64,000 bases of DNA from Salinibacterium xinjiangense (GTDB lineage Bacteria > Actinomycetota > Actinomycetes > Actinomycetales > Microbacteriaceae), in the NCBI RefSeq assembly GCF_014645015.1, contig NZ_BMLC01000004.1, forward strand, positions 186,001 to 250,000, read 5' to 3'. A model generated the notes under the pieces. The model was not told where the DNA came from. It saw nothing but the letters and a program-made list of their open reading frames with translations, and made no database searches. Numbering within the stretch: the first letter of the stretch is position 1; each line of letters starts with the position of its first letter. Positions 29,178-47,074 of this stretch are shown piece by piece. The position numbers and the translations under genes were made by a program.

Positions 29178-30446
29178 TTGAGTGAATTGACTCCACGATC
29201 TGAGTTGCGTTCGCGCTCGGAGCTGCGTACCCGCAGCGGCGCCAGTACCCTCACCGGCATCGCTCGCCATGGGAGACTCCGCAGGTCGAGCCCCATCACC
29301 ACCATCGTCAAGTTCATCGCCGTGGCCCTTGCCGTTGTGCTGGTAAGCGGTGCCTCAGTGGGCGCCCTGGCGGTGACCAGCCTGACCTCTAAAGCGACGG
29401 TCGTAGACATCCCCAGCACACAGGGTGACGCGGCACCGATTCCCGAGGTCGGCGCGATTGAGGGTGGATTCAACATCCTCATCGCTGGCAGCGACACCCG
29501 ACAGGACCAGGGCGGGATCGGCGGCACAACGGAAGATGACAGCGGCGAGCTGAACGATGTCACGATGCTGCTGCACGTCTCCCAGGATCAGACAAATGCC
29601 GTAGCTATTAGTTTCCCGCGCGACATGGTGGTGGGCATCCCCGAGTGTGAGGGTTCCGATGGCTACACCAAGGGATACTCCACAGAACCGATCAACACGG
29701 CGCTCTCCTATGGGGGGCTTTCCTGTGTCGCGCAGACGGTCACCGAGCTGACCGGGCTGCCGATCCAATACGCCGGGCTCATCAAGTTCTACGGCGTGAT
29801 CAACATGGCTGACGCAATCGGCGGCGTCGACGTGTGCGTCGATGGTCCCATGGTTGACGACAACACGGGGATCAACATCGCCGAGGCGGGCACGTACAAC
29901 CTCAAGGGAATTGATGCCCTGGCGTTCCTTCGCTCTCGCGCGGCGGTCGGCGACGGAAGCGACCTGACCCGAATCAGCTCACAGCAGGTCTACCTCTCGG
30001 CTCTCGTCAGGAAGCTGAAGAGTTCGGAAACTCTCGGCGACTTCAAGAAGGTCTACTCGCTCGCCGACGCTGCCCTCAGCAACATGGTCGTGTCGTCCAG
30101 CCTCAACAGCATCCCCACCATGGTCTCGATCGCACAGGCGCTCAAGAACATTCCGCTCGAGAACGTCACGTTCGTGCAGTACCCGGGCACAACGGGTGGC
30201 GACGGTGTTTACACGGGGAAGGTGCAGCCAAACCAGTATGCGGCTGACACCCTCCTGGAATACATCAAGGCCGACCAGCCATTCGTGCTGGAAGCGGCTG
30301 GAGACGAACGTGGTTCGACGCTCGACCCGAATGCTCCCGTGGTGCCGACCACTCCAGCGACAGATGCACCGGAAGTTCCTGTCGCTTCGGGCGTAAGCGG
30401 ACAGACTGCGGCCCAATACACCTGCACCATAACCAATAGCTATTGA
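29178..30446 (+). CDS. LytR-CpsA-Psr (LCP) family cell-wall glycopolymer ligase
   Basis: 422 residues: a basic cytoplasmic head, one membrane segment (about 38-62), the LCP domain, and a Thr/Pro/Ala-rich extracellular tail. Conserved features are NILIAGSDTR, DVTMLLHVS, SFPRDMVVGIP and FLRSRAAVGDGSDLTRISSQQ. LCP enzymes transfer lipid-linked polymers (teichoic-acid-like or capsule glycans) to peptidoglycan, so it could serve either polysaccharide locus in this window (inference). It starts at TTG with GAAAGG upstream and stands alone between two tRNA-Ser genes. Confidence 0.9.
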   Translation: MSELTPRSELRSRSELRTRSGASTLTGIARHGRLRRSSPITTIVKFIAVALAVVLVSGASVGALAVTSLTSKATVVDIPSTQGDAAPIPEVGAIEGGFNILIAGSDTRQDQGGIGGTTEDDSGELNDVTMLLHVSQDQTNAVAISFPRDMVVGIPECEGSDGYTKGYSTEPINTALSYGGLSCVAQTVTELTGLPIQYAGLIKFYGVINMADAIGGVDVCVDGPMVDDNTGINIAEAGTYNLKGIDALAFLRSRAAVGDGSDLTRISSQQVYLSALVRKLKSSETLGDFKKVYSLADAALSNMVVSSSLNSIPTMVSIAQALKNIPLENVTFVQYPGTTGGDGVYTGKVQPNQYAADTLLEYIKADQPFVLEAAGDERGSTLDPNAPVVPTTPATDAPEVPVASGVSGQTAAQYTCTITNSY

Positions 30447-31668: not shown

Positions 31669-32727
31669 ATGATGCACTTCGAGCGCTGGAGCCTCTTGAT
31701 CCTCGGCGAAGCGCTCACCAGCCAGGTGACTCGCTCAAGCGTATTCGAGAGAAATCTCCTGATCGATCGTCGCACCCTCAAATCGAGACTGGCGTCGCTT
31801 GTCAGCTCCGGCCTAATGGACCGACGAGCATCACCCGGACTTGACTCCGACCCCGAATTTACGCTGACCGACAAGGGCCGGGATCTTGAAAAGGTCATTC
31901 GCGAGCTCAACGAGTGGAGCGAGCGTTGGTCACTGCCCGTCCTCGCCGAGGCAGACCTCAGCATTGCGACATCGTCAGATCGGCGCGGCGACCAGCACTC
32001 ATCTATGCCCGAAGTCGTGCCTATCGAAGTCAGCGTATTGGGATCGTTCAGTCTGAGAGTGGGCGGCCAGGCAATAGCTGGGCTCCCACTGGGCTCCCAA
32101 CGCTTACTTGTCTTTCTGGCCCTGCACGACAGGCCTATGAGCCGCGTGGCGGTGGCAGGGAAAATGTGGCCAGACTCGTCGCACGAGCGGGCAGGCGTGA
32201 GCCTTCGGAGTGCGTTGGCCCGACTCGATCCGCCAACGCGGGACGCCATCAATGTTGCCTGTGCAGGGCTGGCACTCGCCGATTCCGCGACGGTGGATCT
32301 GCACTTCGCTCAGGATCTCGCGCACCGGCTACTGCTCGGCGTTGAAGCGGTAGTCGCGAGGGACCTGACGACGGCGGCGCTGCGTTCGCTCTCCACGGAG
32401 CTTCTTACCGACTGGCAGGACGAGTGGATTCTCGAGGACCGCGAGGACTGGCGACAATTGCGCACGACCGGCCTCGAAGCGATGTCAGGGATTCTCACCG
32501 GGCATGGGCAGCCGCTCAAAGCTGCGCAGGCCGCGCGTGCGGCGATCAAAGTCGAGCCTCTTCGTGAAAGCGCGCACATTGCACTTGTTCGCGCACACCT
32601 CGCTCACGGCAACCGTTCCGAAGCTGTTGGAGCCTACGAGCGGTATCGAGCCCTGCTCCACGACGCGCTCGGTATTGCACCTTCTCCGCTGCTGACCGAA
32701 CTGGTGTCTAACTTACGATCCGCGTAG
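31669..32727 (+). CDS. HxlR-type HTH fused to a SARP/BTAD regulator
   Basis: 352 residues with three parts: an HxlR-like winged helix at about 1-95 (ERWSLLILGEAL, then FTLTDKGRDLEKVIREL NEWSERW pattern), an OmpR-like SARP DNA-binding domain at about 118-187 (VLGSFSLRVGGQ, WPDSS, LRSALARL), and a bacterial transcriptional activation domain of TPR-like helices at 230-352. Each domain is well known; having both HTH types in one chain is unusual. It lies 132 bp upstream of the secreted beta-helix gene on the same strand and is the likely activator of the polysaccharide block. Confidence 0.8.
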   Translation: MMHFERWSLLILGEALTSQVTRSSVFERNLLIDRRTLKSRLASLVSSGLMDRRASPGLDSDPEFTLTDKGRDLEKVIRELNEWSERWSLPVLAEADLSIATSSDRRGDQHSSMPEVVPIEVSVLGSFSLRVGGQAIAGLPLGSQRLLVFLALHDRPMSRVAVAGKMWPDSSHERAGVSLRSALARLDPPTRDAINVACAGLALADSATVDLHFAQDLAHRLLLGVEAVVARDLTTAALRSLSTELLTDWQDEWILEDREDWRQLRTTGLEAMSGILTGHGQPLKAAQAARAAIKVEPLRESAHIALVRAHLAHGNRSEAVGAYERYRALLHDALGIAPSPLLTELVSNLRSA

Positions 32728-32859
32728 CGCCACGCCGCCGTCACGCCTCAGACGCGTCATCGTCACTTGGCATCCCGTAGCTTTGTCTTCGCACTCTCGC
32801 TCTGAGCGTGTGGGAACGGGCCCCGGGGGACCATCATCGCTAACACTCGTCGTACAACC

Positions 32860-34797
32860 ATGGCCAAAGCTGCCGTGGCAATTGCACTCGGAATATCACT
32901 CTGCGCGACTGGAGGTGCGGCCTTCGCCGCCCCGATCGCCGTCACAGTCTCCAACTCAGCTCAACTCAAAGTCGCACTTGCTGCCGCTCAGCCGGGTGAC
33001 ACCATCGCGCTGGCGGACGGCACCTACAGTGGCAGTTTCGCAGCCACCGCGAAGGGTACTTCGAGCGCCCCGATCACCCTCACGGGCAGTCGGCGAGCCG
33101 TGCTGACCACCGGGTCGACCGGTGCGGGATCAGGGCTCACGGTAAGTGGCGACTTCTGGCACCTGAACGGATTCGCCGTGAAATCCGTGCTTCGCGGCAT
33201 CGTTCTCATCGACGCAGACAGCACCGCCATCGACGGTGTCGAAGTCGCCAGCGTAGGCCGCGAGGCGATTTCCGTCATGAGTGGAAGTCGCGATGTCAGC
33301 ATTCGCAACTCGTCCATCCACGACACCGGACTCACCGAAGCGAACTGGGGCGACGGAATCATCGTCGGTTCACCCTTCGCCCAGTGGGGCGCCGTCACCG
33401 GCTCCGCCTCGGTGCCCGACCAGTCCGATCGGGTGATCATCGAGGGGAACACCATCAGCAACACCGCAGGGGAAGGTGTCGATATCAGAGAAGGTACGAG
33501 GAACGCGCAGATTCGAGGGAACATCTTTGCGAACTCGGGCTACAGCGGCCAGAACTATGCCGACTCCTGGGTCGACGTCAAAGGAGACTCAACCGTGGTG
33601 CAGGGCAACAGCGGCACCGGGGCACTGCTCGATGCGTTCCAGGTTCATTCCCCGGTAGCCGGATGGGGCGGGGACAACGTGTTCGCGGGTAATTCCGTTG
33701 CAGGGATGCCCGGCTACGAAGTGCGAGTCGAGTCGACGGAACGAGGCAACACCGTCGCCTGCGGAGTCACGGGGGCGGGGCTCGGCACAGCAAATATTCC
33801 GTGCCTGGGATCCCCGAGCGCACCGGCTCCGACGCCAGCGCCGACCCCCACACCGGCTCCGACGCCAGAGCCGGCCCCCAGCGCGACCCAAACTCCAGTA
33901 GCGATATCCGCGCCGTCCGATCGCATTTTGGTTTCCACTTCAGCGCAACTGACGGCAGCGCTCAGGGCGGCCACGCCCGGCCAAACCATCGAACTCGCGC
34001 GCGCAACTTACACCGGCCAATTCGTGGCGGCAACAGACGCATCCTCACTGAAGCCCATAACAATTACCGGGCCAGCGGGGGCAGTGCTGACAACGGGTTC
34101 CGACAGGTCGGGCTATGGGCTGCACGTCACCGGCAACTACTGGCGCCTCACCGGGTTCAGCGTTTCAACTGCGCAGAAAGGTGTGGTGCTCGATGGTTCC
34201 AACGGAACCGTCATCGATCATCTCACGGTCGGAAAAACGGGACAGGAGGCCGTGCACGTGAGAGCAAACAGCGCGGGGGTCACGATTCGCGACTCCACGG
34301 TTCACGACACCGGGCTCTCGACACCGGAATATGGCGAGGGCATCTATGTCGGCAGCGCAAAGAGCAACTGGGCTTCGATCATGGGATCGGCATCGACCCC
34401 AGACAAATCGGATCGCGTGCTCATCGAGAACAACATCATCACCAACACGTCTGCAGAGGGTATCGACGTGAAGGAAGGCACATCCGGGGGGATCATTCGA
34501 GGCAACGTGTTCACCAACGCGGGGTACTCGGGGGCGAACTACGCAGACTCGTGGGTCGATGTGAAGGGCAATGGCTATCTGCTGGAATCCAATTCGGGCA
34601 GCGGGACGCTGCTTGACGCGTTCCAGGTGCATTCCGTCATGACCGGATGGGGCCGCGACAACGTCTTCCGCACGAATACGGTATCGAGCGGGGTGCCCGG
34701 CTATGAGGTGAGGGTCGATTCGAGCGAGACTGGGAACAAGATCTACTGCAAATCGTCGGGCGCTCGATTGGGTCTCACTAATGTGAAATGCATTTGA
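32860..34797 (+). CDS. Secreted two-module right-handed beta-helix protein
   Basis: 645 residues. A signal peptide (cleavage after AAFA) is followed by a beta-helix module (about 25-318), a Pro/Thr/Ala linker (320-347) and a second beta-helix module (350-645). The halves are homologous: both contain HDTGL, EG(V/I)D, DSWVDVKG (residues 235 and 563) and LLDAFQVHS. The same module forms the lipoprotein at 36274. Such folds occur in polysaccharide lyases (PL6-like) and C5-epimerases, so it probably acts on the glycan made by the opposite-strand genes. No ribosome site precedes the ATG. Confidence 0.85.
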   Translation: MAKAAVAIALGISLCATGGAAFAAPIAVTVSNSAQLKVALAAAQPGDTIALADGTYSGSFAATAKGTSSAPITLTGSRRAVLTTGSTGAGSGLTVSGDFWHLNGFAVKSVLRGIVLIDADSTAIDGVEVASVGREAISVMSGSRDVSIRNSSIHDTGLTEANWGDGIIVGSPFAQWGAVTGSASVPDQSDRVIIEGNTISNTAGEGVDIREGTRNAQIRGNIFANSGYSGQNYADSWVDVKGDSTVVQGNSGTGALLDAFQVHSPVAGWGGDNVFAGNSVAGMPGYEVRVESTERGNTVACGVTGAGLGTANIPCLGSPSAPAPTPAPTPTPAPTPEPAPSATQTPVAISAPSDRILVSTSAQLTAALRAATPGQTIELARATYTGQFVAATDASSLKPITITGPAGAVLTTGSDRSGYGLHVTGNYWRLTGFSVSTAQKGVVLDGSNGTVIDHLTVGKTGQEAVHVRANSAGVTIRDSTVHDTGLSTPEYGEGIYVGSAKSNWASIMGSASTPDKSDRVLIENNIITNTSAEGIDVKEGTSGGIIRGNVFTNAGYSGANYADSWVDVKGNGYLLESNSGSGTLLDAFQVHSVMTGWGRDNVFRTNTVSSGVPGYEVRVDSSETGNKIYCKSSGARLGLTNVKCI

Positions 34798-34813
34798 CCC
34801 TCACCTCGGTGAC

Positions 34814-36229
34814 TTACCGACCCGGCGTGGCTGCGGAGTCCTTGTGGTGTTCGGCGAGTGCGACCGTCGGGGATGACAGGGGCCGGCCCAATGCCCTGTA
34901 CTCCCAGCCGGCGGCCCGGTAGCGATCTGCGTCGAGGGCGTGGCGCCCGTCTACGATCCGCCGGTTGGCCACGAGCTGGCCGAGAACCTCGGGATCTGCA
35001 TTTCTGAATTCGTCCCACTCCGTCAGAAGAGCAACTACCTGTGCGTCATTGATCGCGTCGGCCATCGAGTCTGCAAAGTCGAGGTCGGGATAGACCCGGT
35101 GGGCATTCTCGTTGGCCTCGGGATCGTAGACCGTCACGATGGCACCCTCGAGGTAGAGCATCCGGGCAACATCGAGTGCCGGGGCATCCCGAATATCGTC
35201 CGAATTTGGTTTGAAGGCAGCGCCGAGGGCGGCAACTTTCACGCCCATGAGGTCGCCCCCGACCAGCTCCCTGATCAGGTCAACCGTGCGTACTCGGCGG
35301 CGAATGTTGATGGCGTCAACCTCACCGAGGAACGCAACCGCCTGGCCCACGCCCAGCTCTTCGGCCCGAAACTTGAAGGCGCGAATATCTTTCGGAAGGC
35401 ACCCGCCGCCGAACCCGAGCCCGGGCTTGAGAAACCTGGAGCCGATCCGTTCGTCGTACCCCAGAGCGGTCGCGAGAATATTCACGTCGCCGCCTGTGAC
35501 CTCGCACACCTCAGCCATGGCGTTGATATACGAGATTTTTGTTGCGAGGAACGAGTTGGCCGCCACTTTCACCAATTCGGATGTGGCCAGATCGGCGATC
35601 ACAACCGGTGTCTGCTCTTCGAGGATCGGGCGGAACGCGGCCCGCAATTGCTGTTCCGCCCACAAGGAAGATACTCCGAAGACGAGTCGGTCGGGGTGAA
35701 GCGTGTCTTCTACGGCGTGGCCTTCGCGCAGGAATTCGGGGTTCCAGGCGAGCTCGAGTTCAGACCCGACCGGGGACATTTCGTGAACCATCTCAGTCAA
35801 TCGAGCAGCCGTTCCGATGGGCACCGTCGACTTTCCGACCAGCAAAACCTTTCGAGTGATTCGGGTGGCAAGGCTCGAGAATGCAGCGATAACGTAGCGC
35901 ATGTCAGCGGCGGGCGAATCCGCCGCCTGGGGTGTGCCAACGCAGACGAAGTGCACGTCGCCGAAATCTGCGGCAAGCGCAAAATCGGTCGTGAATCGCA
36001 GGCGACCGGATGCGAGCGCCTCCTTCAGCTTCTCGGGCAACCCGGGCTCGAAGAAGGGAACGCGCCCTGCACTGAGTTCGGCGACCTTTCGAGCATCGAC
36101 GTCGACGCCAAGAACGTCATAGCCGAGATTCGCCATGCAGATGGCGTGGGTCGCGCCAAGATATCCGGTGCCGATAACGGTCATCCTGGGATGTTCGACG
36201 ATGGGGTGGGTAGTAGGCGTGATGGGCAC
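34814..36229 (-). CDS. ugd: UDP-glucose 6-dehydrogenase
   Basis: 471 residues of the UDP-glucose/GDP-mannose dehydrogenase family. The NAD loop is VIGTGYLG (18-25), NPEFLREG marks the central region and the catalytic Cys277 is in FGGGCLPKD. It oxidises UDP-glucose to UDP-glucuronate, the donor for a uronic-acid polymer. GTG start with GAGGAG six bases upstream. It is the last gene of the minus-strand synthase set; a 44-bp gap with a tandem repeat separates it from the lipoprotein gene. Confidence 0.93.
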   Translation of the reverse strand: MPITPTTHPIVEHPRMTVIGTGYLGATHAICMANLGYDVLGVDVDARKVAELSAGRVPFFEPGLPEKLKEALASGRLRFTTDFALAADFGDVHFVCVGTPQAADSPAADMRYVIAAFSSLATRITRKVLLVGKSTVPIGTAARLTEMVHEMSPVGSELELAWNPEFLREGHAVEDTLHPDRLVFGVSSLWAEQQLRAAFRPILEEQTPVVIADLATSELVKVAANSFLATKISYINAMAEVCEVTGGDVNILATALGYDERIGSRFLKPGLGFGGGCLPKDIRAFKFRAEELGVGQAVAFLGEVDAINIRRRVRTVDLIRELVGGDLMGVKVAALGAAFKPNSDDIRDAPALDVARMLYLEGAIVTVYDPEANENAHRVYPDLDFADSMADAINDAQVVALLTEWDEFRNADPEVLGQLVANRRIVDGRHALDADRYRAAGWEYRALGRPLSSPTVALAEHHKDSAATPGR

Positions 36230-36246
36230 GTGTTTCTCCTCAAAGT

Positions 36247-36278
36247 GGGTTAGTGGGTTACGGGGTTAGTGGGTTACG
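36247..36278. repeat. Two-copy 16-bp tandem repeat
   Basis: GGGTTAGTGGGTTACG occurs at 36247-36262 and 36263-36278 without mismatch, covering the gap between the lipoprotein stop and the ugd ribosome site. The copy number could change by slippage and alter spacing. Confidence 0.85.
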
Positions 36279-37293
36279 GATTGGTGGAACCTGGGGCGCA
36301 ATCGACGTTGCTGACCCCTTCTTGCGCATTTGTTGCGGTGTTGCTGCATTCGACGACATTGCCAAGCTCAGGGGTGAGTGAGAATCCAAAACCACCCGCC
36401 ATGACGTCCGCCGTATTTGACCGGAACACGTTGCCGGTCCCCCAGCCATCGAGAATCTCGTGGGTTTGAAATCCGTCGAGGGGCGACGAGCTACCCTTGT
36501 TATCAACGATCAGCCAGTCGTTTCCTTTGACATCGACCCAGGAATCGCCTCCTGATATGGATGCACCGTCGAATCGGTTATCGCTGAGAATGCCGTCGCT
36601 CGTGCCTTCCTTGATGTCGACCGATTCGGCCGTTGTCTCCGAGATGGTGTTGTGGGAGATCGTGTTGCGATCCGACTTGTCCGGCTCACAATTGGTGATG
36701 GAACACCAGTTGCTCTCAGCCGTTCCGATGTAGATGCCTTCGCCGAACTTCGGTTTTCGTAGTCCCGTGGCATTGATCGTGTTGCCCGTCACGACGTTGT
36801 CGGTGCTGAATGCCCTCAGGTGAATTGCTTCATCACCGATTCCGGTCACGGTTAGGCCGCGAATGATCGTGTCGGTGACGCCATCGGCCATGACACCCTT
36901 TTGACCACCGCGAACGGTGAATCCGTCGAGGATCCAGTTGCTCACCCCGTCGAGATGAAACACGTAACCCTTGTCGGTGCCCCCCCCGTCAAGAATCGCA
37001 TCGGCTGGCCCGCACAACGAGATTGGTTGTGCCTTCGTGCCTGGAACGCTCGCAATGAAGCGCCCCGCATAGATGCCGGGTGCCAGCAGGATCGACGCCC
37101 CGGGTTTCGCCGCAGTGAGGGCATCCGCCAGCTGCGATGACGTAGCTACCTTTTCGGTCGGCGATGCGCACGATTCCGGAGTGGATTGCTGTTTCGAATC
37201 GCCCGAAGGCTTGGGAGTCGGGGCACCGCATGCCGTCAGGCCTATGAGCAGCGTGGCGACGGCGATCAGGCGGATACCCTGGCCCGCCATCAT
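36274..37293 (-). CDS. Right-handed beta-helix lipoprotein
   Basis: 339 residues. A lipobox LTAC (Cys22) ends the signal peptide, followed by a single beta-helix module homologous to each half of the protein at 32860: DEAIHLRAFS, GEGIYIG, PDKSDRNTIS, DIKEGTSDG, DSWVDVKG and DGWGTGNVF. It would be anchored on the outer face of the membrane, close to the synthase exit. The start ATG overlaps the stop of the upstream beta-helix gene (ATGA), showing translational coupling. An enzymatic (lyase or epimerase) role is inferred from fold and context only. Confidence 0.87.
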   Translation of the reverse strand: MMAGQGIRLIAVATLLIGLTACGAPTPKPSGDSKQQSTPESCASPTEKVATSSQLADALTAAKPGASILLAPGIYAGRFIASVPGTKAQPISLCGPADAILDGGGTDKGYVFHLDGVSNWILDGFTVRGGQKGVMADGVTDTIIRGLTVTGIGDEAIHLRAFSTDNVVTGNTINATGLRKPKFGEGIYIGTAESNWCSITNCEPDKSDRNTISHNTISETTAESVDIKEGTSDGILSDNRFDGASISGGDSWVDVKGNDWLIVDNKGSSSPLDGFQTHEILDGWGTGNVFRSNTADVMAGGFGFSLTPELGNVVECSNTATNAQEGVSNVDCAPGSTNP

Positions 37294-39146
37294 TCGGACA
37301 CCCGACTGACAGAATGCCGCGCGATGACACCTTTGCTGAGGGTCTGCAATGGGGCACGGTTGGCATAGGGATGGCGGTAGGCACCAAATCTGAGCGATCG
37401 GGGGCCAACCATCGTTGCGAGCAGCAAGAGCGCCAGCACCAGCCAGATGATCGTCAACGGTCGAAAAATGGATTTGAGAACAGCGGCCGGCGTCGTGGCC
37501 GGATGCCATCCGTCAAGATCGTTGATGCCCGGGGTGAACCCAACGGCCTCACGATCGTAGATGGGCAGCGTGCCGTAGCCCGAGATCGAGTTGCCAACGA
37601 CGCTGACGGCGCCCGCATCCCCCATGACCGTGACGCCATGGTTCGACAGTGATGTCAGCGTGTTGTCCGTTATCGCTACTCCGGCATTCCTGACATATAT
37701 TGCCGTATCGCCGCCGGCGAAGGTGTTGTTGCTGACCGCAGCCTGCATTACTCCATCCCGCACGGCGACAGACTGCAGGCCCTGCTCGCCGAAGTCGTTA
37801 TTCTTTATGATTGCGCCAAAGGAGCCGTGATTGATGACGACGCCCACCTGGTTGGATGCGATGCGGTTGGCTGCGACCGTGACGTCGCGCCCCCCGCTGA
37901 TCTCGACGCCGTACCGCCCGTTTTCGAGGAGGTCGCTGTCGGTGATGCGGTTGTCGCCGTAGCTCTCAACTTCGCTTCCGATCGCGCTCGGCCCGTCGGC
38001 GAGCGGCTGGCCGTCCAGGGAGATGCCGTTGCGACCGTTGGCGGATGCCGTGACGCGGTCGAAAATCACGCCGGTCGACGAGCGGGCGAGCGTGAACCCG
38101 TCGACAGCGTTATTGGACGATGTTGTGTCGATCACAGTGCTGTCCTTAACGAATCGGTGAAACACGAGGCCGTCGACGAGGCTGTTCGTAATGTCCGAGT
38201 GACTGACCCTGACGTTCACCGCGCTGGTCACAAACAGACCGAAGGCGTTGCCGTCGATGCTCACGTTGTCGACCTTTGCTGAAACAAGTGGGCTGACTGT
38301 GGGAGCCGACACGTCGCCTTTCAGGGCTCCGGCCGGAAGCAAAAACGCTCCCGCTACCTCTGGCGCGGCCTTATCGGTGAGAGCGCTCATATCGGCCACA
38401 TTGAATGGCCCGGCCGCCTCGCTTCCGGTCAGCGCCAACCCTCCCGTGTTTCCGCTCCAGAACCCCAGATTGGCGAAGTCTGCGTCAGAGAGGGTCGCCT
38501 GCCCGCCAATCGCACGAATGTAGGCTCGGCCATCATCGGTGACGGTGTCGGGCGCGGCCAGCTGGCTGTCCCAGCTCAGCATGGACACGGGCGCGAGGTC
38601 GGAGCCGGCGATCGTCAGGGCGCCACCGAGAGTCACGATGGACACGAACTTTGAGGCGTCGCTCTCCATTCGAATCGTGACGCCCCGGTCAGCATTCAGC
38701 GCCAGGGTAGCCCCCTCCATCACCACTACGCTTTCGCTCAGCAGGTAGGTGTTGGCATCCTGGGCCACGAAGGTGTTCGGAGCCAGTGCGAGCAGGTCCT
38801 CGATCGTGTACGGCTCGGCGCGAGCCGTGAGCACCAGGGTGAACGCCGCGCCGGTGTCGAGTCGGAACGGGCCGTCCGTGCTGATATCTCCCCAACGCGC
38901 GACCGAAGCCGCAGTGCGCGCATAGACCAGCCGCTCGTCTTCGATTTGCACCAGCCGAGACTCGAGCTCAGGCGTACCGGAATAGAGGTCGCCCTGTATG
39001 GTTCCGTTCGCGGCGATTTCGTTTCGTCCGACCGCATCGGGCTTGACGTCCCCAAAATCTACGCCGTTGACGACGAGACCAACCAGTATTGCCCCGACGG
39101 CAACGCCGACACTCGCGCCGATCAGGCCAGCTCGAACGCGGCTCAT
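37290..39146 (-). CDS. Membrane-anchored right-handed beta-helix protein (epimerase/NosD-like)
   Basis: 618 residues: an N-terminal membrane segment (about 8-30), an extracellular region with a parallel beta-helix at about 300-560, and a second membrane segment (about 578-600) with a basic cytoplasmic tail. The repeated turns, such as NGRNGISLDG, NGRYGVEISGGRDVTV and NAGVAITDNTLTSLS, match the pectate-lyase/NosD/AlgG type. AlgG-like proteins epimerise uronic acids during export. It lies between the synthase (4-base overlap) and the lipoprotein (4-base overlap). Confidence 0.87.
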   Translation of the reverse strand: MSRVRAGLIGASVGVAVGAILVGLVVNGVDFGDVKPDAVGRNEIAANGTIQGDLYSGTPELESRLVQIEDERLVYARTAASVARWGDISTDGPFRLDTGAAFTLVLTARAEPYTIEDLLALAPNTFVAQDANTYLLSESVVVMEGATLALNADRGVTIRMESDASKFVSIVTLGGALTIAGSDLAPVSMLSWDSQLAAPDTVTDDGRAYIRAIGGQATLSDADFANLGFWSGNTGGLALTGSEAAGPFNVADMSALTDKAAPEVAGAFLLPAGALKGDVSAPTVSPLVSAKVDNVSIDGNAFGLFVTSAVNVRVSHSDITNSLVDGLVFHRFVKDSTVIDTTSSNNAVDGFTLARSSTGVIFDRVTASANGRNGISLDGQPLADGPSAIGSEVESYGDNRITDSDLLENGRYGVEISGGRDVTVAANRIASNQVGVVINHGSFGAIIKNNDFGEQGLQSVAVRDGVMQAAVSNNTFAGGDTAIYVRNAGVAITDNTLTSLSNHGVTVMGDAGAVSVVGNSISGYGTLPIYDREAVGFTPGINDLDGWHPATTPAAVLKSIFRPLTIIWLVLALLLLATMVGPRSLRFGAYRHPYANRAPLQTLSKGVIARHSVSRVSE

Positions 39147-40420
39147 GCGTCGACCGTTTCTGGGCGCAGGGTTTTGGCTGTCTGTCCGTCGCCACCGATG
39201 GTGTCATCGTGCCGGGTGAGCCACCCCTGCTTATTCATCGTGAAGAAGGCGAAAACCTTGATGGGCAGCGCGACAAAGATGACCGTGAGAGCGAGCACTG
39301 GCAATATCAGAATGTCCTTGGGATGCCGGCGCAGGTGCGAGATGCCCCGGATGCCACGGCCGAGCAGCAACCACGCGGCTGCCGCGATGATCCCCCAGGT
39401 GGACACATCCAGGCGGCTGAAAATCAGATAGAAGATCGTCAGTCCCATCGTGACCGGGGTCAGCAGGATCTGAAGCACAGTGATTTTTGTAATGAACGGA
39501 ACCCGCCACAGCCAACCCTTCGCGATTGCGGTGAGGTAGGCGCGGTAAGAGTTGCGGCTCCACCGAACTCGCTGCTTCACGAATGCGCCAAAGCCCGCCG
39601 GGAACATGGAGAGCGCCTTGGCCGATGACTGATGAACGGTGCGGTAACCGGAGGCGAGAACAAGCCAGGTCAACCGACCATCGTCACCCGAGATGCATCG
39701 TCGGCCGAGGAAGAACTCATTTTCGAGGTTGTCGAGCACCGGCATCACGGCTGAGCGACGGTAGACAGCGGTTCGACCCGAGAGGCACGGCACCGCGCCA
39801 GCGCGACCCATTGCCGGCACGTAATCGAAGTAGCGCAGGTTCACCAGCCAGTCGGCGATGCGCCGCCACAGGCTGGAGTCGCGCTGGTAGACGCTCTGCT
39901 GGGTGCTTGTGCCGCCGACGGTCGGATCGATGAACGGTTTCTGAACGTTCTCGAGCAGTCCGGGCATCCACGAGGTGTCGGAGTCGGTGAGCACCAGCAG
40001 TTCGGAGCTGGCTTCACGAATTCCCACGCCGAGAGCCGATCTTTTCCCCGCGTGGTGGAAGAGAATCGGCCGAACCCGAGGGTCACCGAGCTGCACAATG
40101 CGCTCGTATGCGTCGAGGTCGGCGACGTCGAGAACGATGATGATTTCGGTCGGATTTTGGCTGCGCCATGAATCCAGGCAGCGCATCAGGATCTTCGGAT
40201 CCTCATGAAACGACGGAACGACTATCGAGGTTGTCGTCCTGAAGTCGCTTTCGATGGGGCGCGCCAGCCGCGACAGGATGAACCGGTAGATCCACAGTCC
40301 CCAGACGATCGTGCCGGCGATCGCCAGTGGGAAGTACGGTGCGATGCTTTCGACGACGGACGTGATTGCAGCGAGTATCCCGGAAAGATCGAACTCAGAA
40401 TTGCTCGGCGGAAACGTCAT
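39143..40420 (-). CDS. Processive membrane glycosyltransferase, GT2 (hyaluronan/chitin synthase-like)
   Basis: 425 residues. One membrane segment near 31-50, a GT-A catalytic domain, and several C-terminal membrane segments. The processive GT2 signature is complete: DSD (146-148), GDD (245-247) and QRVRW (283-287). It would polymerise UDP-sugars on the cytosolic side and extrude the chain. Adjacent ugd points to glucuronate as one donor. No PilZ domain is seen, so no c-di-GMP control is evident. It is the first gene of the minus-strand set. Confidence 0.9.
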   Translation of the reverse strand: MTFPPSNSEFDLSGILAAITSVVESIAPYFPLAIAGTIVWGLWIYRFILSRLARPIESDFRTTTSIVVPSFHEDPKILMRCLDSWRSQNPTEIIIVLDVADLDAYERIVQLGDPRVRPILFHHAGKRSALGVGIREASSELLVLTDSDTSWMPGLLENVQKPFIDPTVGGTSTQQSVYQRDSSLWRRIADWLVNLRYFDYVPAMGRAGAVPCLSGRTAVYRRSAVMPVLDNLENEFFLGRRCISGDDGRLTWLVLASGYRTVHQSSAKALSMFPAGFGAFVKQRVRWSRNSYRAYLTAIAKGWLWRVPFITKITVLQILLTPVTMGLTIFYLIFSRLDVSTWGIIAAAAWLLLGRGIRGISHLRRHPKDILILPVLALTVIFVALPIKVFAFFTMNKQGWLTRHDDTIGGDGQTAKTLRPETVDA

Positions 40421-40644
40421 GGAAGTCCTTTGCTCGGATGGGAAAAACCGAACGCTGGACGCATGGGTGGCGCTAGCTCGGTCCCCGTTGGCCGTGTGCC
40501 TGAAGGTCGGATCCCGGGACCAGGGAACCCAACATGCGGCTTATCGGTTGATGACCCTCATTACAGACATAGGTCGAATAAGAACGCAACCCCCTTCGCG
40601 AAACTTTCTACGTGACATAAATTCGGCTACGTGATCGTCGCGAA

Positions 40645-41070
40645 TCAGCGTGACGCCTCTACCCGATCGCGCAGGACGCGCGAGAAAACAACGGTGAGCA
40701 TCCCGGCAACCGGCACCATATGTAGACCCATTCAACGGCTTGGGTTCTCTGCGATCGCTCCGACGATAGGCGGTGAAATTAGATAGCCGACCCGCACGAC
40801 GGTCGAGATTCCGACGCTCGCGAGACCGACGCCGGTGATCATTCTGGGATCGTGAGAAACGGGCGCGCGAGCCGCATACCCAGGAAGAAGATCACGACGC
40901 CGGTGCGTGCGGCGGCACGCTGGCCCAAGCGATCCACGAGCTGGTCTCAAAACAGTCGGATCGTGAACTGTACGTCCTGCAGCGCGACGAACCCGTGCCG
41001 CCGACGACCGGAAATATCGCGTCCCCCAGCCCGAACACGGCGTCGGTCAGGTGCAGCCTGGGCAGAACCT
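40645..41070 (-). pseudogene. Decayed MFS transporter remnant
   Basis: On the minus strand, pieces of an MFS protein can be read: a DRLGQRAAARTGVVIFFLG-like loop and TM2, then VGISTVVRVGYLISPPIVGA, followed after an in-frame stop (near 40732) by VPVAGMLTVVFSRVLRDR resembling TM12. Frameshifts and the stop break the frame, and the N-terminal and central parts are missing. It is a remnant without function. Confidence 0.45.
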
Positions 41071-41740
41071 GGGGATACTTCAGCAGGCAGGCGACCTCGC
41101 GGTCATTCGAAGCTTGGAATGGTGATGAGTCGCGCTGGGTTTTGTGCCCGGGTGGTTTCTTGCGAGCGGTCGCTTCCAGAAGTGGCTCGGCTTCAGCGTG
41201 GTGCGCGTGATTCGGCCTCGGTCATGGCGTTGTCGCAGGGTTCGCCGACGGTTCCTGTTGAGGGGACAGCGCCGAGCATCGAGCATCGAGCGCCGCAAAC
41301 ACGCTCGCTGACCGGAGGATATCGTTCGCGTTCTCCAGCCCAGCGATCTGTTTCTACAAGAGTCTCATCGCCAGCTGCCGCCTCGGAGGCCCTTCCCGGC
41401 TTACGACCGGCGTCCGATATCGGCACGCTTCTTCCACAACCGCAACGGCCGGAATTCACCCCGAGACCGCCGGCAACATGGCCCGCGGCAGAGTGATCAG
41501 ACCGGGGATCGGCACGAGCTCGAGCCAGCATCCGCAGTGCATGCTCACGAGACTCGATCGGGTGAGGGTTCGACATAGTTCAGTCCTCCCAGGGGAAACA
41601 CAGAATGAAAGCCAGGGCGAGTCAGGGCGTGCCTAGCCCCCGTGCTTGTCCTACGTCAAGAGTTAGTGGAAGAATCCCGCTAGACGTAACGTCATAGGCA
41701 ACGGCGAATGGTTGCCGTTCCGGCAACCGGAAGCAGTCGA
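41071..41740. other. Stretch without a supported gene
   Basis: A minus-strand frame beginning at 41576 has a good ribosome site (GGGAGGACTGAACT before ATG) and a plausible first 25 residues, but then loses coding character, so it may be another broken gene. Nothing else can be supported. Confidence 0.4.
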
Positions 41741-41998
41741 GTGACCTACCTGATCCATATCAACGCACAGGCATTTGCCGTGAGTGACGACGAGATCGAC
41801 GATGTCGAGGCTCGGATACTCGAGGCAGTTCGTGCCACCGGCGCATTCATCGACTTCGTCGGAACTGGTGAGAGGCCACTGCGAATTTTGGTCACACCCG
41901 CGTCGTGGGTGTGGATCGAGAGTTTCGCGTACGTCGACGATCTCGATGAAGGCGACGAGGGCGACTCAGATCTCGTCATGCTGGACCTCGATCTCTAG
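41741..41998 (+). CDS. Small acidic hypothetical protein
   Basis: About 85 residues, strongly acidic at the end (DDLDEGDEGDSDLVMLDLDL). The body looks like a small alpha/beta fold, ending in ILVTPASWVWIESF. No known domain is recognised. The GTG at 41741 has GGAAG upstream; an ATG at 41708 adds 11 residues. Codon bias supports coding. Confidence 0.55.
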   Translation: MTYLIHINAQAFAVSDDEIDDVEARILEAVRATGAFIDFVGTGERPLRILVTPASWVWIESFAYVDDLDEGDEGDSDLVMLDLDL

Positions 41999-42193
41999 GG
42001 GAAGCCGATCCAGGAATGACGGCGCCGGCTAGACCGCCGTCACGCCTGAATCGGCAGGAACATATGCAAGGGGGCTCACCGGCAGTCGGAGGAACCCGGC
42101 TGGTCACCATGCCTTGTAGTGGCAACAACTCCAGTTCTGTCCTGTCGATTCTGATCAGATGCCTCATGACCGATGCCGAGACACTGCTCTGCC

Positions 42194-42529
42194 TTACACA
42201 GACGTGAAAACTTTGGCATCAGCTGGCTCCTGCACAGGCTCGGTAACCAGCCGCAATCCAGAGGGGGTCTTGGCCGTGGCGATGATGGAGCGTGCCCAGG
42301 TTTCATTGATGCGGGGTGGTCGGCTGCCATGAAAACGGAACCGGATTTCGGTCGAGGGACTGATCCACAGTGTTTCGCGCCCGCCGCCCAGTTCGCCTGG
42401 GCGATCGAAGGAAAATGCAACGCACTGTCCGGCGCGTAGCAAACTGAGCACGGCAATTTTTAAATGTGCCAGTGGGCGGTCGTCAATTTCGATTGCATAG
42501 CTGTTGTTGCCGTAGTAAAGAAATCCCAT
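42194..42529 (-). CDS. DUF7882-type small protein
   Basis: 111 residues opening MGFLYYGNNSYAIEIDDRPL with ALAHLK-like continuation, and WISPSTEIRFRFHGSRPPRIN in the centre. This is the short Microbacteriaceae family that older annotations call ATP-dependent DNA ligase, although it has no ligase motif; current usage is DUF7882. Function unknown. ATG 42529 has GGTGAG upstream; a longer open frame to 42739 lacks similar composition. Confidence 0.65.
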   Translation of the reverse strand: MGFLYYGNNSYAIEIDDRPLAHLKIAVLSLLRAGQCVAFSFDRPGELGGGRETLWISPSTEIRFRFHGSRPPRINETWARSIIATAKTPSGLRLVTEPVQEPADAKVFTSV

Positions 42530-43248
42530 GGTTCTCACCGTTCGGTTGTGACGGATTGTGATGCTGATTAGCCCAGCCCTGCACCTATTTCCCTCTCGAC
42601 GTTGCGCCGCCCTGTCGTCGTCCAATGCGGATGTAGGGCGAGCTACGCGCCTCGGAGTGGTTCCGTTCCGGCTCGATTGGCCCGGAAAACCCGGAACGTT
42701 CTGCTTCGGCGACCAGCGCGATGTCGAAATTCGCGACATGGATCCATCGCGGAGGTGCGGCAGCCCCCGACATCCGGAACCGATCGGGGCGTAGACGTTC
42801 GATGTGGCCCGGCAGTCGAGTCTCGTTCGTCGATGTCGATGTCGATGGCGATGGCGATGGCGATGGCGATGTCGCCGTGCCGCCGCGCCGCCTCGTCTGA
42901 ACGGACGACCGTGAGCGGCACAGACAGGATGTTGACCTGGGAGCTACCGGCCTGCCAGTTTTGTCTATGGTCCCGTCGCACCGTCAGCAAGGGACAAGGC
43001 ACACCGCGGCTGATAACCCGGGCGAGAGCCTCGGGGAGGGTCGAGGGAAAATGTGTCACAGCACGGCCGATCCGTCAGGGAAGACTCACCGAAGGCTGGA
43101 GTGATGCTCAATAGACTTTCATTCTGCAAAACGAATGTCAACGACATATCTGCGATTGTCCGAATCATCGGAACTGAGCGCCAGATTGCGGGCGTGCGGT
43201 ATCGTGAAAGCACTGTCCCAGACCCTGGCAGTCCAACTGCGAGGGTCG
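42530..43248. other. Stretch with short repeats and no supported gene
   Basis: It contains the hexamer repeat at 42831-42872. A minus-strand frame at 42643-43059 reads through that repeat as alternating Ile with Asp or Ala, but has no ribosome site or recognisable domain and I do not call it. Confidence 0.4.
42831..42872. repeat. Seven-copy hexanucleotide tandem repeat
   Basis: Seven consecutive CGATGK units: CGATGT twice, CGATGG four times, CGATGT once. A simple-sequence tract of this kind can vary by slippage. It lies in non-coding or doubtful coding sequence. Confidence 0.85.
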
Positions 43249-44001
43249 ATGGGGGTTTTGCCTGATGCCGTGGTACTCAGCATGACATCCCCGCGAAACG
43301 AGCCCCCCGCCGTCTCCGACGAAAGCGAAACGGTCGGTGGCAGCGACCCACTGGACCTGTGCGACGCTTTTGTCGCGGCCCTCCCTATTACCGGCGCATC
43401 CGTTGCAGTACTTGCGGGTTCTGGGGCCCGATTGACCCTGTGCTCCAGCGACGCCACCGCAGCACGCGTGGATGAGCTGCAATTCGAACTCGGCGAGGGG
43501 CCGCAATTCTCCGTGTCGCGATTCGGGAACTTCATCGGCATTCCGGATGTTGCTCAGCACCTCCATCACGACTGGCCAGTGTTCGGGGCCGCACTTCACG
43601 AACTGTCGATTGGGGCATTATTCAGTGTGCCGATGAGAATGGGGGCAGTGACCCTCGGAGTCGCGACACTCTATTGCGCTGCTGCTCGTGTCCTGAGCCC
43701 GGAGCAAAAAACGACGGCACTGGCCATCGCATCCGCAGCAGTCGGCTCGCTGACGAGCCAGGCGCTGCGATCGGCCACAGACGAGATCGATGCTGGGTCA
43801 CAGATGGCGCCGGCATCGCGCCGAGAAATTCATCAGGCAACCGGCATGGTTCTGGTACAACTGGATACAACGGCGACCATCGCCTACGCACGACTCCAGG
43901 CCCATGCGTTTGCCAACATGAAGACGCTCCAGCAGGTTGCCCATGAGGTGGTGTCGGGCGTGTTCACGTTCGACGCCACCCCATATGAAGCAGAAACTTA
44001 G
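43249..44001 (+). CDS. GAF and ANTAR domain protein
   Basis: About 250 residues: a GAF domain (roughly 25-165) and a C-terminal ANTAR RNA-binding domain (roughly 190-240, REIHQATGMVLVQLDTTATI). ANTAR proteins bind twin-hexaloop RNA hairpins and act as antiterminators. ATG 43249 has GAGGG upstream; the frame is open from 43135, but those residues do not look like domain sequence. Nine bases separate it from a second GAF-ANTAR gene. Confidence 0.85.
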   Translation: MGVLPDAVVLSMTSPRNEPPAVSDESETVGGSDPLDLCDAFVAALPITGASVAVLAGSGARLTLCSSDATAARVDELQFELGEGPQFSVSRFGNFIGIPDVAQHLHHDWPVFGAALHELSIGALFSVPMRMGAVTLGVATLYCAAARVLSPEQKTTALAIASAAVGSLTSQALRSATDEIDAGSQMAPASRREIHQATGMVLVQLDTTATIAYARLQAHAFANMKTLQQVAHEVVSGVFTFDATPYEAET

Positions 44002-44010
44002 GAAAGGACG

Positions 44011-44745
44011 ATGATGAAGACGGGAACGCGCGAGAGCAGGCTCAACACGGCGTTTGTCAAGCTGGCCGACACCCTCGTCGCCGAGTTCGACGTGATAGAC
44101 CTCATGCACTGGCTGGTCGAACAGTGCATCGAAATTCTTGACACCCAGGCTGGCGGGTTGATGATCGTCAACTCTGCAGGGGACCTGCAACTTGTTGCGT
44201 CGACAAGCGAAGATGCGACGATGGTCGAAGTCTTCCAACTCGCGGCGGGAGACGGACCGTGCATGGAATGTTTCCGGACCGGCAATGCTGTCACCGTCGC
44301 GAGCATCGAGGAGAACCTGGATCGCTGGCCGCGATTCGGACCGGAGGCGCTGAAGCTCGGATTTCGGTCGGTGCACGCCACGCCGCTTCGTCTGCGAGGT
44401 CAGGTCATCGGCACCATGAACCTGTTCAGCTACCATGTCGGCGCGCTGGTGTCGGAGGATGTCGCCATAGCTCAGGCTCTGGCCGACGTCGCTACGATCG
44501 GGATTTTGCAGGAACGCAGCATCCGGAGCGCTGAGCTGGTGGCCGAGCAGCTTCAGCGAGCGCTCGACTCCCGGGTCCTGATCGAGCAGGCAAAAGGCGT
44601 GCTTGCCGCGACGCTGGGCACGACCATGGACAACGCGTTTTCCATCATGCGCACCTACGCACGGGATCGCAACCTCGTACTTCGGCAGGTTGCCGAGGAC
44701 ATCACCGCCCGGCGGCTGCAGCTGGGAAAGGTCGGCAAAAAATAG
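44011..44745 (+). CDS. GAF and ANTAR domain protein (paralogue)
   Basis: 244 residues with a GAF domain (about 30-165, GLMIVNSAGDLQLVASTSED and DGPCMECFRTG) and an ANTAR domain at about 178-235 (LQRALDSRVLIEQAKGVLAA). GAAAGGACG precedes the ATG. It is the second of a tandem pair and probably co-expressed with the first; the two could form heterodimers (inference). Cys residues in the GAF pocket (GPCMEC) may matter for sensing. Confidence 0.9.
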   Translation: MMKTGTRESRLNTAFVKLADTLVAEFDVIDLMHWLVEQCIEILDTQAGGLMIVNSAGDLQLVASTSEDATMVEVFQLAAGDGPCMECFRTGNAVTVASIEENLDRWPRFGPEALKLGFRSVHATPLRLRGQVIGTMNLFSYHVGALVSEDVAIAQALADVATIGILQERSIRSAELVAEQLQRALDSRVLIEQAKGVLAATLGTTMDNAFSIMRTYARDRNLVLRQVAEDITARRLQLGKVGKK

Positions 44746-45843: not shown

Positions 45844-46200
45844 ATGCCTCAACCATTCGTTCTCTCAGCCGAAGTCGCCGACGCCATCGCAGCCCCGCGG
45901 CCGGTCGTGGCGCTCGAGTCGACGATCATCGCCCACGGGCTCCCCCGCCCCCGCAACCACGAAGCTGCCGTCGAATTCGAGTCGATCCTGCGCGACTCCG
46001 ATGTGACGCCGTCCACCATTGCGGTGCTTGACGGGGTCGCCTGCATCGGTCTCGACGCCGGCGGCATCCGGCGGATAGCCGAGGAGCCGCTAGCGAAAGC
46101 AAGCGTTCGCGGCTTCCACGAGGACAACCTCGACCTCGCCCACGGCAATGTGCGGGTCGCTGCTCGCATCGTCACCGCATGGGAGGCGCTCAGTGCCTGA
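45844..46200 (+). pseudogene. psuG: Pseudouridine-5'-phosphate glycosidase with internal deletion
   Basis: 118 codons where PsuG is about 300. The first 90 residues match the enzyme start (RPVVALESTIIAHGLPRPRN, TIAVLDGVACIGLD, EPLAKASVRG), and the last 25 (DNLDLAHGNVRVAARIVTAW) match the final helix of full PsuG. The roughly 170 residues between, holding the Schiff-base lysine (Lys166 in E. coli) and the metal-binding aspartate, are gone, yet the frame is kept. It should be inactive as a glycosidase. TAGATT lies 7 bases before the ATG. It overlaps the kinase gene. Confidence 0.75.
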
Positions 46201-47074
46201 CCGCATCGTCTCGTTCGGGGACATCATCGACGATGTTGTGGCGATGCCGTACGACGCGATCCGCATAGACACCGACACTGCGGCATCCATCGGCTTCAGG
46301 GCGGGCGGATCGGCAGCCAATACCGCAGCCTGGCTCGGGTCGCTGGGAATGACTGTCGATTTCGTCGGTGTCGTCGGGAAGGCCGATCTCGAGAGACACA
46401 CGATGCTGCTTAGACGGGCCGGTGTCACCACGCACCTGCGAGCGCACCCGACCCTGACCACGGGCACGATCGTGATCATCGTCGAGGGTGAGCACCGCAC
46501 GATGCTCACCGAGCGTGGTGCGAACACGGAACTCGACCCGGTGGATGTCACCACCGAGCTGCTGGCGGATGCCGCAGTGCTGCACCTCACCGGATACTCG
46601 CTGCTGAACTCAGCCGGTGCTGCCGGGTTTGCCACGCTGGTTGCGCGTGCACACCGGGCCGGAGCGAAGGTCTCTGTCGACCCGGGCTCTGGCGGCGTCA
46701 TCGCGGATTATGGTGTCGACAAATTTCTCGCGGCCATCAAAGGTGTCGAGTTGCTGTTCCCGAGCCTCGAGGGGGGCAGGGTGCTCACCGGGCTCTCCGA
46801 CCCCGCCCACATCGTCGATAAACTCGCAAAAGACTTTCCGACCGTCGTTTTGACCATGGGTGCGGCCGGTGTTGTGATCTCCCACCATGGCACGACCCTG
46901 ATGGTGCCGGCGGTCACTACCCCCGTGGTCGATCCGACGGGAGCCGGGGACGCATTTTGCGCGGGTTTCCTGAATGGATGGGTGCGCTCGGGCGACCTCG
47001 GGCGATCGGCGAGCGCTGGGGCGAAATTGGCGGCGAAGGCCGCTTCCATCATCGGCGGCCGGCCGGTGCTTTAG
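46193..47074 (+). CDS. PfkB family carbohydrate kinase (pseudouridine-kinase-like)
   Basis: 293 residues, intact. The sugar-binding GGSAANTAAWL and the ATP/catalytic motif DPTGAGDAFCAGF are present. The family phosphorylates sugars and nucleosides; next to psuG the best guess is pseudouridine kinase (PsuK), which makes the PsuG substrate. The GTG overlaps the psuG stop by 8 bases, so they were an operon. It overlaps the convergent photolyase gene by 4 bases. Confidence 0.88.
   Translation: MPDRIVSFGDIIDDVVAMPYDAIRIDTDTAASIGFRAGGSAANTAAWLGSLGMTVDFVGVVGKADLERHTMLLRRAGVTTHLRAHPTLTTGTIVIIVEGEHRTMLTERGANTELDPVDVTTELLADAAVLHLTGYSLLNSAGAAGFATLVARAHRAGAKVSVDPGSGGVIADYGVDKFLAAIKGVELLFPSLEGGRVLTGLSDPAHIVDKLAKDFPTVVLTMGAAGVVISHHGTTLMVPAVTTPVVDPTGAGDAFCAGFLNGWVRSGDLGRSASAGAKLAAKAASIIGGRPVL

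Follow-up and report, generated by a model that had tools for sequence, protein, structure and literature searches.

The locus considered here, in a stretch of 64,000 nt of contig NZ_BMLC01000004.1 of Salinibacterium xinjiangense (this whole stretch is referred to as the window; the genome has 3.02 Mb in 9 contigs), raises the question of what its adjoining glycosyltransferase, beta-helix and sugar-nucleotide dehydrogenase genes do together. They might make a uronic acid polymer, degrade one or build a wall glycopolymer. A preliminary description had proposed a glucuronate-containing exopolysaccharide that is modified at the membrane and outside the cell. Our comparison of sequences and structure models points, with a probability of about 0.68, to an acidic exopolysaccharide operon of Actinomycetota which would be synthase-dependent, arranged on the plan of alginate biosynthesis and fed with UDP-glucuronate. 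The core of this operon comprises a family 2 glycosyltransferase (GT2; P0001), an AlgG-like beta-helix protein (P0002), a lyase of the PsAly type (P0003) and a protein of the UDP-glucose 6-dehydrogenase type (P0004, Ugd).

The four-gene core was found to be conserved in related genomes, as the preliminary description had expected of its gene set. Scanning GTDB species contigs with P0001 yielded 71 loci (67 actinobacterial, two archaeal and two labelled Vibrio and Stenotrophomonas) on which the window proteins were then mapped; gene order was read at a minimum of 85 bits within the stretch fetched per locus. A P0002 homologue adjoins the GT2 gene in 67 of the 71 loci, and the four exceptions are two contig ends (L032 and L077) and two archaeal contigs (L096 and L098). 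The homologues of GT2, P0002 and P0003 are contiguous in 46 loci and the full order GT2-P0002-P0003-Ugd is contiguous in 36, while a P0003/P0005-type gene occurs anywhere in the stretch in 64.

The reading frames of the first three genes also overlap. The P0002 open reading frame (ORF) overlaps the GT2 stop by four bases. The listed ORF of P0003 begins at 37509, but its lipobox (MMAGQG...LTAC, by eye) is preceded by a start at 37293, an ATG in a 4-base overlap with the P0002 stop; through this ATG the 4-base overlaps reported earlier for all three genes are confirmed. A gap of 44 bases separates P0003 from Ugd. Across the loci, a start codon lies within a 4-base stop overlap at 44 of 59 GT2/P0002 junctions and 40 of 45 P0002/P0003 junctions, and at 1 of 36 P0003/Ugd junctions. 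These counts and the conserved gene order go beyond a chance arrangement. Because the start codons are placed in this way, the products of the first three genes are probably translated together. The pairwise divergences of the four core proteins also correlate with one another in 32 loci (Mantel r 0.56-0.80; 0 of 999 permutations as high). All six ORFs of the locus were found at their original places (Table 1).

Table 1. Features of the locus and its neighbourhood, with positions in the window.
Feature	Description	Position	Strand	Basis
P0001	Processive GT2 synthase of the NodC/hyaluronan-synthase type; core gene 1	39143-40420	-	GT2 Pfam, motifs, AlphaFold model
P0002	AlgG-like beta-helix protein, membrane helices predicted at the N and C termini; core gene 2	37290-39146	-	Model, Foldseek, HMM matches
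P0003	Lipoprotein, PsAly-type polysaccharide lyase, predicted tethered; core gene 3	36274-37293	-	phmmer, active-site residues, lipobox
P0004	UDP-glucose 6-dehydrogenase type protein (Ugd), putative UDP-glucuronate supply; core gene 4	34814-36229	-	TIGR03026, PDB matches
P0005	Secreted double PsAly-type protein, degenerate first and intact second domain; optional accessory	32860-34797	+	phmmer, residues, signal peptide by eye
P0006	Regulator with HxlR-type helix-turn-helix (HTH) and BTAD domains (SARP-like); not conserved with the system	31669-32727	+	Pfam
LCP protein	LytR-CpsA-Psr (LCP) family protein	29178-30446	+	Pfam, 120 bits; NCBIfam, 118.6 bits (cut-off 62.3)
Upstream region	About 2.7 kb upstream of GT2, no convincing long gene	40421-43134		
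ANTAR proteins	Two adjoining ANTAR-domain proteins, a GAF domain being present in the second; RNA-binding antiterminator-type regulators	43135-44745	+	
PfkB kinase	PfkB-family sugar kinase	46148-47074	+	Below every NCBIfam cut-off

Within the same bacterial family we searched 199 genomes, the source genome included, at cut-offs of E<=1e-60 for GT2, E<=1e-10 for P0002 and E<=1e-20 for the lyase. The GT2 was observed in 20 genomes, the P0002 homologue in the same 20, and a lyase-type protein in 27 that include all the GT2 carriers. Three genomes of the same genus have no match to GT2, P0002 or the lyase, and therefore the operon is patchy. A phylum-wide GT2 profile (E<=1e-80) matched in 5 of 396 genomes, one of them that of the window. 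Of the other four, L101 and L102 have the GT2-P0002-P0003 order, with a dehydrogenase as well in L102, and in L103 and L104 the neighbours of GT2 are weak or partial; a lyase search of these four genomes found it in L101 and L102 only. No plasmid-borne copy was matched at E 1e-60. On the two archaeal contigs the GT2 is 30-35% identical and a distant dehydrogenase-like match lies within about 4 kb. The loci labelled Vibrio cholerae (L058) and Stenotrophomonas maltophilia (L032) have a GT2 of actinobacterial type, L058 together with the whole operon, and are probable contaminations of those assemblies.

The dehydrogenase bears on which sugar would be polymerised. P0004 matches TIGR03026 with 402.2 bits, above the cut-off of 189.8, and stays below the equivalog cut-offs of TuaD (356 bits against 700) and AglM (345 against 670). 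Its top PDB matches are UDP-glucose dehydrogenases (4a7p, 7.4e-94) and GDP-mannose dehydrogenase is a weaker match (6.6e-49), which agrees with the identity assigned to it at the outset. Among seven scanned dehydrogenases near GT2 genes, TuaD is the nearest relative for six and the E. coli Ugd type for the seventh (L080). The best enzyme-specific model of all seven is a UDP-glucose dehydrogenase, none reaching the cut-off. The Pseudonocardia enzymes (L063, L071 and L097) are only 38-42% identical to P0004, and the lineage of the dehydrogenase that adjoins GT2 varies from locus to locus. Dehydrogenases of one kind thus seem to have been recruited repeatedly, and this would favour UDP-glucuronate as the substrate.

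A second Ugd copy, 58% identical, is present on another contig of the source genome, and 95 of the 199 family genomes contain a dehydrogenase at E<=1e-150. Nineteen family copies are at least 72% identical to P0004 and 16 of these are located beside GT2; the others belong to G042, G127 and G176, the last being a fragmented assembly. In G042 (L099, 8018-9385) and G127 (L100, 8643-9968) an operon-type Ugd, 77 and 74% identical respectively, was observed with no other core gene within 18 kb. These lone copies are possibly operon remnants or serve another use.

The structure model of P0001 is nearest to hyaluronan synthases (HAS). The three motifs first noted in this protein are intact (DSD at 146-148, GDD at 245-247 and QRVRW at 283-287), and GKR and NKQGWLTR are also present. 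In a Foldseek search of the PDB with the AlphaFold model (pLDDT 84.4, pTM 0.83) the first 13 matches are all hyaluronan synthases (E 1.8e-22 to 2.7e-19). A mannosyltransferase at 1.2e-14 and cellulose synthase at 1.5e-14 come next, and chitin synthase stands at rank 21 with 4.4e-12. P0001 therefore has the fold and the catalytic motifs of a class I HAS. Its best NCBIfam model is NodC (TIGR04242), with 139.5 bits and hence below the cut-off of 550. A report on CvHAS describes K177 and R341 as holding the carboxylate of UDP-glucuronate (UDP-GlcA) (PMC12987647). These residues align with K126 and R286 of P0001, both of which are invariant in 32 rows.

P0002 is a distant relative of the alginate C5-epimerase AlgG, as judged from profiles and a structure model; the profile, the model and the residue counts use 49 rows. 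The AlphaFold model (pLDDT 85.8) shows a beta-helix flanked by helices at 7-25 (low confidence) and 563-580 (higher confidence). Foldseek places AlgG crystal structures at ranks 1-4 (E 1.5e-11 to 1.4e-9; target TM 0.51-0.69), and AlgE epimerases follow mixed with other beta-helix enzymes. When the profile was compared with all PDB sequences, the first seven matches were mannuronan C5-epimerases (AlgG 4e-10, AlgE4 2.1e-8), with NosD eighth at 1.2e-6. The NCBIfam AlgG model (NF038177) matches 15 of the 49 rows at E<=1e-3. In L069, which lacks a 46-residue insertion, residues 125-299 match positions 145-323 of the AlgG profile and thereby extend from the N-terminal domain past the active-site His (at 279); in L051, residues 144-270 match positions 124-245, over the N-terminal domain. 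The AlgG fold, including its N-terminal non-repeat domain, is thus recovered by the fold ranking and by these two matches, which overrule generic beta-helix similarity as the whole cause of the AlgG match. Helix similarity alone is weak evidence because the lyase P0003, used as a control, already gives an hhalign probability of 74.8 as compared with 91.8 for the AlgG helix part. A NosD copper protein was rejected as an identity: NosD_copper_fam is matched at E 1e-3 by 41 of the 49 rows, yet P0002 itself reaches 24.2 bits where the cut-off is 300, and we regard this as generic repeat similarity.

In the better-supported register, H330 of P0002 falls on the His of the AlgG DPHD motif and R355 on the downstream Arg, which we take to be R345. 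H330 is kept in 38 of the 49 rows and R355 in 45. This histidine is described as the proposed proton-abstracting residue of AlgG (PMC8824271). The N-terminal domain is conserved throughout the P0002 family, rows without the His included, and for this reason we infer a guiding role common to all homologues, with catalysis only where the His is kept.

The sole strong PDB relative of P0003 and P0005 is the alginate lyase PsAly (6kfn; phmmer E 3.6e-41 and 2.7e-51, respectively), the homology spanning about 255 residues; its family is presumably CAZy PL31. PsAly is described as an endolytic enzyme that prefers polymannuronate, with Tyr184 and Lys221 as predicted catalytic residues and Glu181, Glu216 and Asp219 binding the first cation (PMC6796002). 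We compared 60 copies in PsAly numbering, taking the best plus-strand copy per locus and leaving out loci without a usable one. E181, Y184, E216, D219, K221, K128, H154 and K252 are kept in all 60 copies and R156 in 59, followed by D246 and H278 (56 each), D250 (55) and Q276 (45). P0003 itself has a gap at Y244 and keeps the other 13 of the 14 active-site positions compared. A lipobox (LTAC, by eye) is present in P0003 and a lipobox also in type II copies, and in many type I copies a hydrophobic stretch at the N terminus takes its place; the operon lyase is therefore predicted to be tethered.

The second domain of P0005 keeps 14 of the 14 compared residues, and the first domain has lost six (K128R, H154S, R156M, E181D, Y184I and K221R). 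P0005 had been counted with the gene set, and this does not hold, as only 8 of the 71 loci have a gene for which it is the best-scoring query, and its first half lacks the catalytic residues. Judged by sequence, it would be an optional extracellular lyase outside the conserved core. We rejected chondroitinase B as an identity for P0005, since that match (28.1 bits) is far weaker than the one to PsAly. Eight and seven PsAly-type matches were observed in the genomes G134 and G187, and the lyase family is expanded in some genomes of the family.

These relations suggest the following scheme. Ugd would make UDP-glucuronate, which the GT2 would polymerise into a glucuronate-rich chain with 1,4 linkages, as a homopolymer or in alternation with a second UDP-sugar, and would pass through its own channel. 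Outside, the AlgG-like protein, anchored at both ends, would guide the chain and may epimerise uronate C5 where the active-site His is kept. The tethered lyase would cut by beta-elimination and so set the chain length, release chains or clear misdirected polymer; AlgL is described as clearing alginate from the periplasm (PMC8829089). P0005 would be an optional further lyase outside the cell. It is also conceivable, though we consider it unlikely, that the AlgG-like protein converts glucuronate on the chain to L-iduronate, which would give a Gram-positive iduronate-containing polymer whose synthesis involves no lipid-linked repeat and which has its own tethered PL31 lyase for trimming. What is retained of the original proposal is thus the conserved core with its dehydrogenase, lyase and AlgG relations, without the regulator and P0005. 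Its view of the beta-helix proteins as modifiers or cleavers of uronate polymers is sustained to the extent that two have an alginate-lyase-type active site and the third is related to AlgG.

Several observations weigh against an alginate-plan operon fed with UDP-glucuronate. No dehydrogenase was found at 85 bits within the stretch fetched in 26 of the 71 loci, 14 of which form a Microbacterium/Nocardioides clade and some others of which are cut by contig ends; in a further 9 loci it lies elsewhere in the stretch, off the contiguous order. The Mantel correlations among the four core proteins are also expected from shared host ancestry. K126 and R286 lie within motifs that we take to be common to the NodC/HAS group; therefore the use of UDP-GlcA is allowed and the choice of donor unproven. 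None of the 60 lyase copies retains PsAly Tyr244. For the P0002 family, the best score on the AlgG model is 34.7 bits against a cut-off of 700 and the P0002 of the window fails at E 1e-3. The AlgG N-domain fragment alone gave no significant hhalign result (probability 1.3), the DP of DPHD is not kept, and in two other alignments, one with the type I profile, the helix is shifted by one coil. Furthermore, the active-site His is absent from 11 of the 49 rows (all eight from Microbacterium and Nocardioides, L038, L065 and L071).

This loss of the His, together with the HAS-like model of P0001 and NodC as its best NCBIfam model, would suit a heteropolymer of hyaluronan-like or chitin/cellulose-like kind. 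Here the GT2 would alternate GlcA with N-acetylglucosamine or glucose, the AlgG-like protein would be a non-catalytic guide and the lyase would cleave hexosamine-GlcA bonds. Such a polymer is a tentative alternative, less probable than the alginate-plan operon, and the two overlap as the latter allows a homopolymer or an alternating chain. Against it, the closest relatives of both partner proteins are enzymes that act on 1,4-linked polyuronates, given the preference described for PsAly (PMC6796002) and the action of AlgG on mannuronan.

The family survey adds one more point on the opposing side, as 7 of the 27 lyase-bearing genomes have no such GT2 and the lyase family therefore has other uses. 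Such genomes would be expected if the lyases and beta-helix proteins degraded environmental uronate polymers (alginate or glucuronan), with GT2 and Ugd there by chance. The PsAly source bacterium is described in a study of alginate degradation (PMC6796002), and the PfkB-family kinase near the locus matches some KDG kinase models, albeit far below the cut-off (62.9 bits or less against 440). We consider a catabolic set very improbable: the reading frames overlap with that of GT2, GT2 and the AlgG-like gene share an identical phyletic pattern, the kinase has no match in the 71 loci, and Pfam scans of nine further flanking proteins gave no uronate-catabolism family.

The LCP protein suggests another possibility, in which a teichuronic-acid-like glycopolymer would be attached by it to peptidoglycan rather than released as free exopolysaccharide. 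Its domain is in the neighbourhood and scores above the NCBIfam cut-off. A single one of the 71 loci, L062, contains a relative, so the LCP gene is not in the conserved core, and a processive single-synthase GT2 is understood to need no lipid-linked repeat; we regard a wall polymer as quite improbable. The regulator P0006 had also been placed in the set and has to be removed from it, as tblastn at E 1e-3 gave no match in any of the 71 loci. Upstream of GT2, an ORF selection by coding bias kept only one 96-aa ORF, which has no Pfam match. Apart from the core, inspection by eye showed that neighbour clusters present in at least 4 loci largely reflect synteny among related Microbacterium loci or are small ORFs running antisense to the core. 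Annotation covered nine proteins, drawn from a minority of these clusters or from other neighbours. One of them had no match; the others were response regulators (a 14-locus cluster), a peptidase, an HTH protein, a further dehydrogenase, a weak nucleotidyltransferase and an FBP-type zinc finger. A weakly conserved extra gene may still exist.

Literature searches aimed at the gene set or at such polymers returned no description, as judged by title and the start of the abstract, and their incomplete coverage makes this weak evidence of novelty. If the alginate-plan reading is correct, a conserved four-gene counterpart with UDP-glucuronate supply in many actinobacterial genera points to an undescribed matrix polymer, the PsAly family gains a biosynthetic role, and uronate polymers as well as enzymes that act on them could be obtained from these loci.

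P0001 resembles class I hyaluronan synthases (CvHAS and XlHAS1) in its fold, its DxD, GDD and QxxRW motifs and the carboxylate-contacting Lys and Arg, and differs in an identity of about 20% and in GDDG where these have GDDR; to our knowledge its partner genes do not occur in HAS systems. The operon lyases have the same catalytic and first-metal-site residues as PsAly of Paenibacillus sp. FPU-7, whereas the second-metal-site Tyr244 is not kept and the operon enzyme is predicted to be membrane-tethered and is encoded with a synthase. Synthase-dependent acidic polymers with an on-line epimerase and a lyase are known from alginate, whose biosynthesis in Pseudomonas and Azotobacter relies on Alg8/Alg44, AlgD, AlgG and AlgL. 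In contrast to that system, the dehydrogenase of the operon is of the UDP-glucose and not the GDP-mannose type, the lyase has the PsAly fold and not the PL5 fold known for AlgL, membrane helices are predicted at either end of the AlgG-like protein, which lacks the DP of DPHD, and the hosts are Gram-positive. No PilZ/Alg44, outer-membrane or acetylation gene was found by Pfam among the six genes and 10 neighbours, the part of the genome that was searched. What the two share is a GT2 synthase, a nucleotide-sugar dehydrogenase, an AlgG-type beta-helix protein at the outer face and a lyase, all encoded in one cluster.

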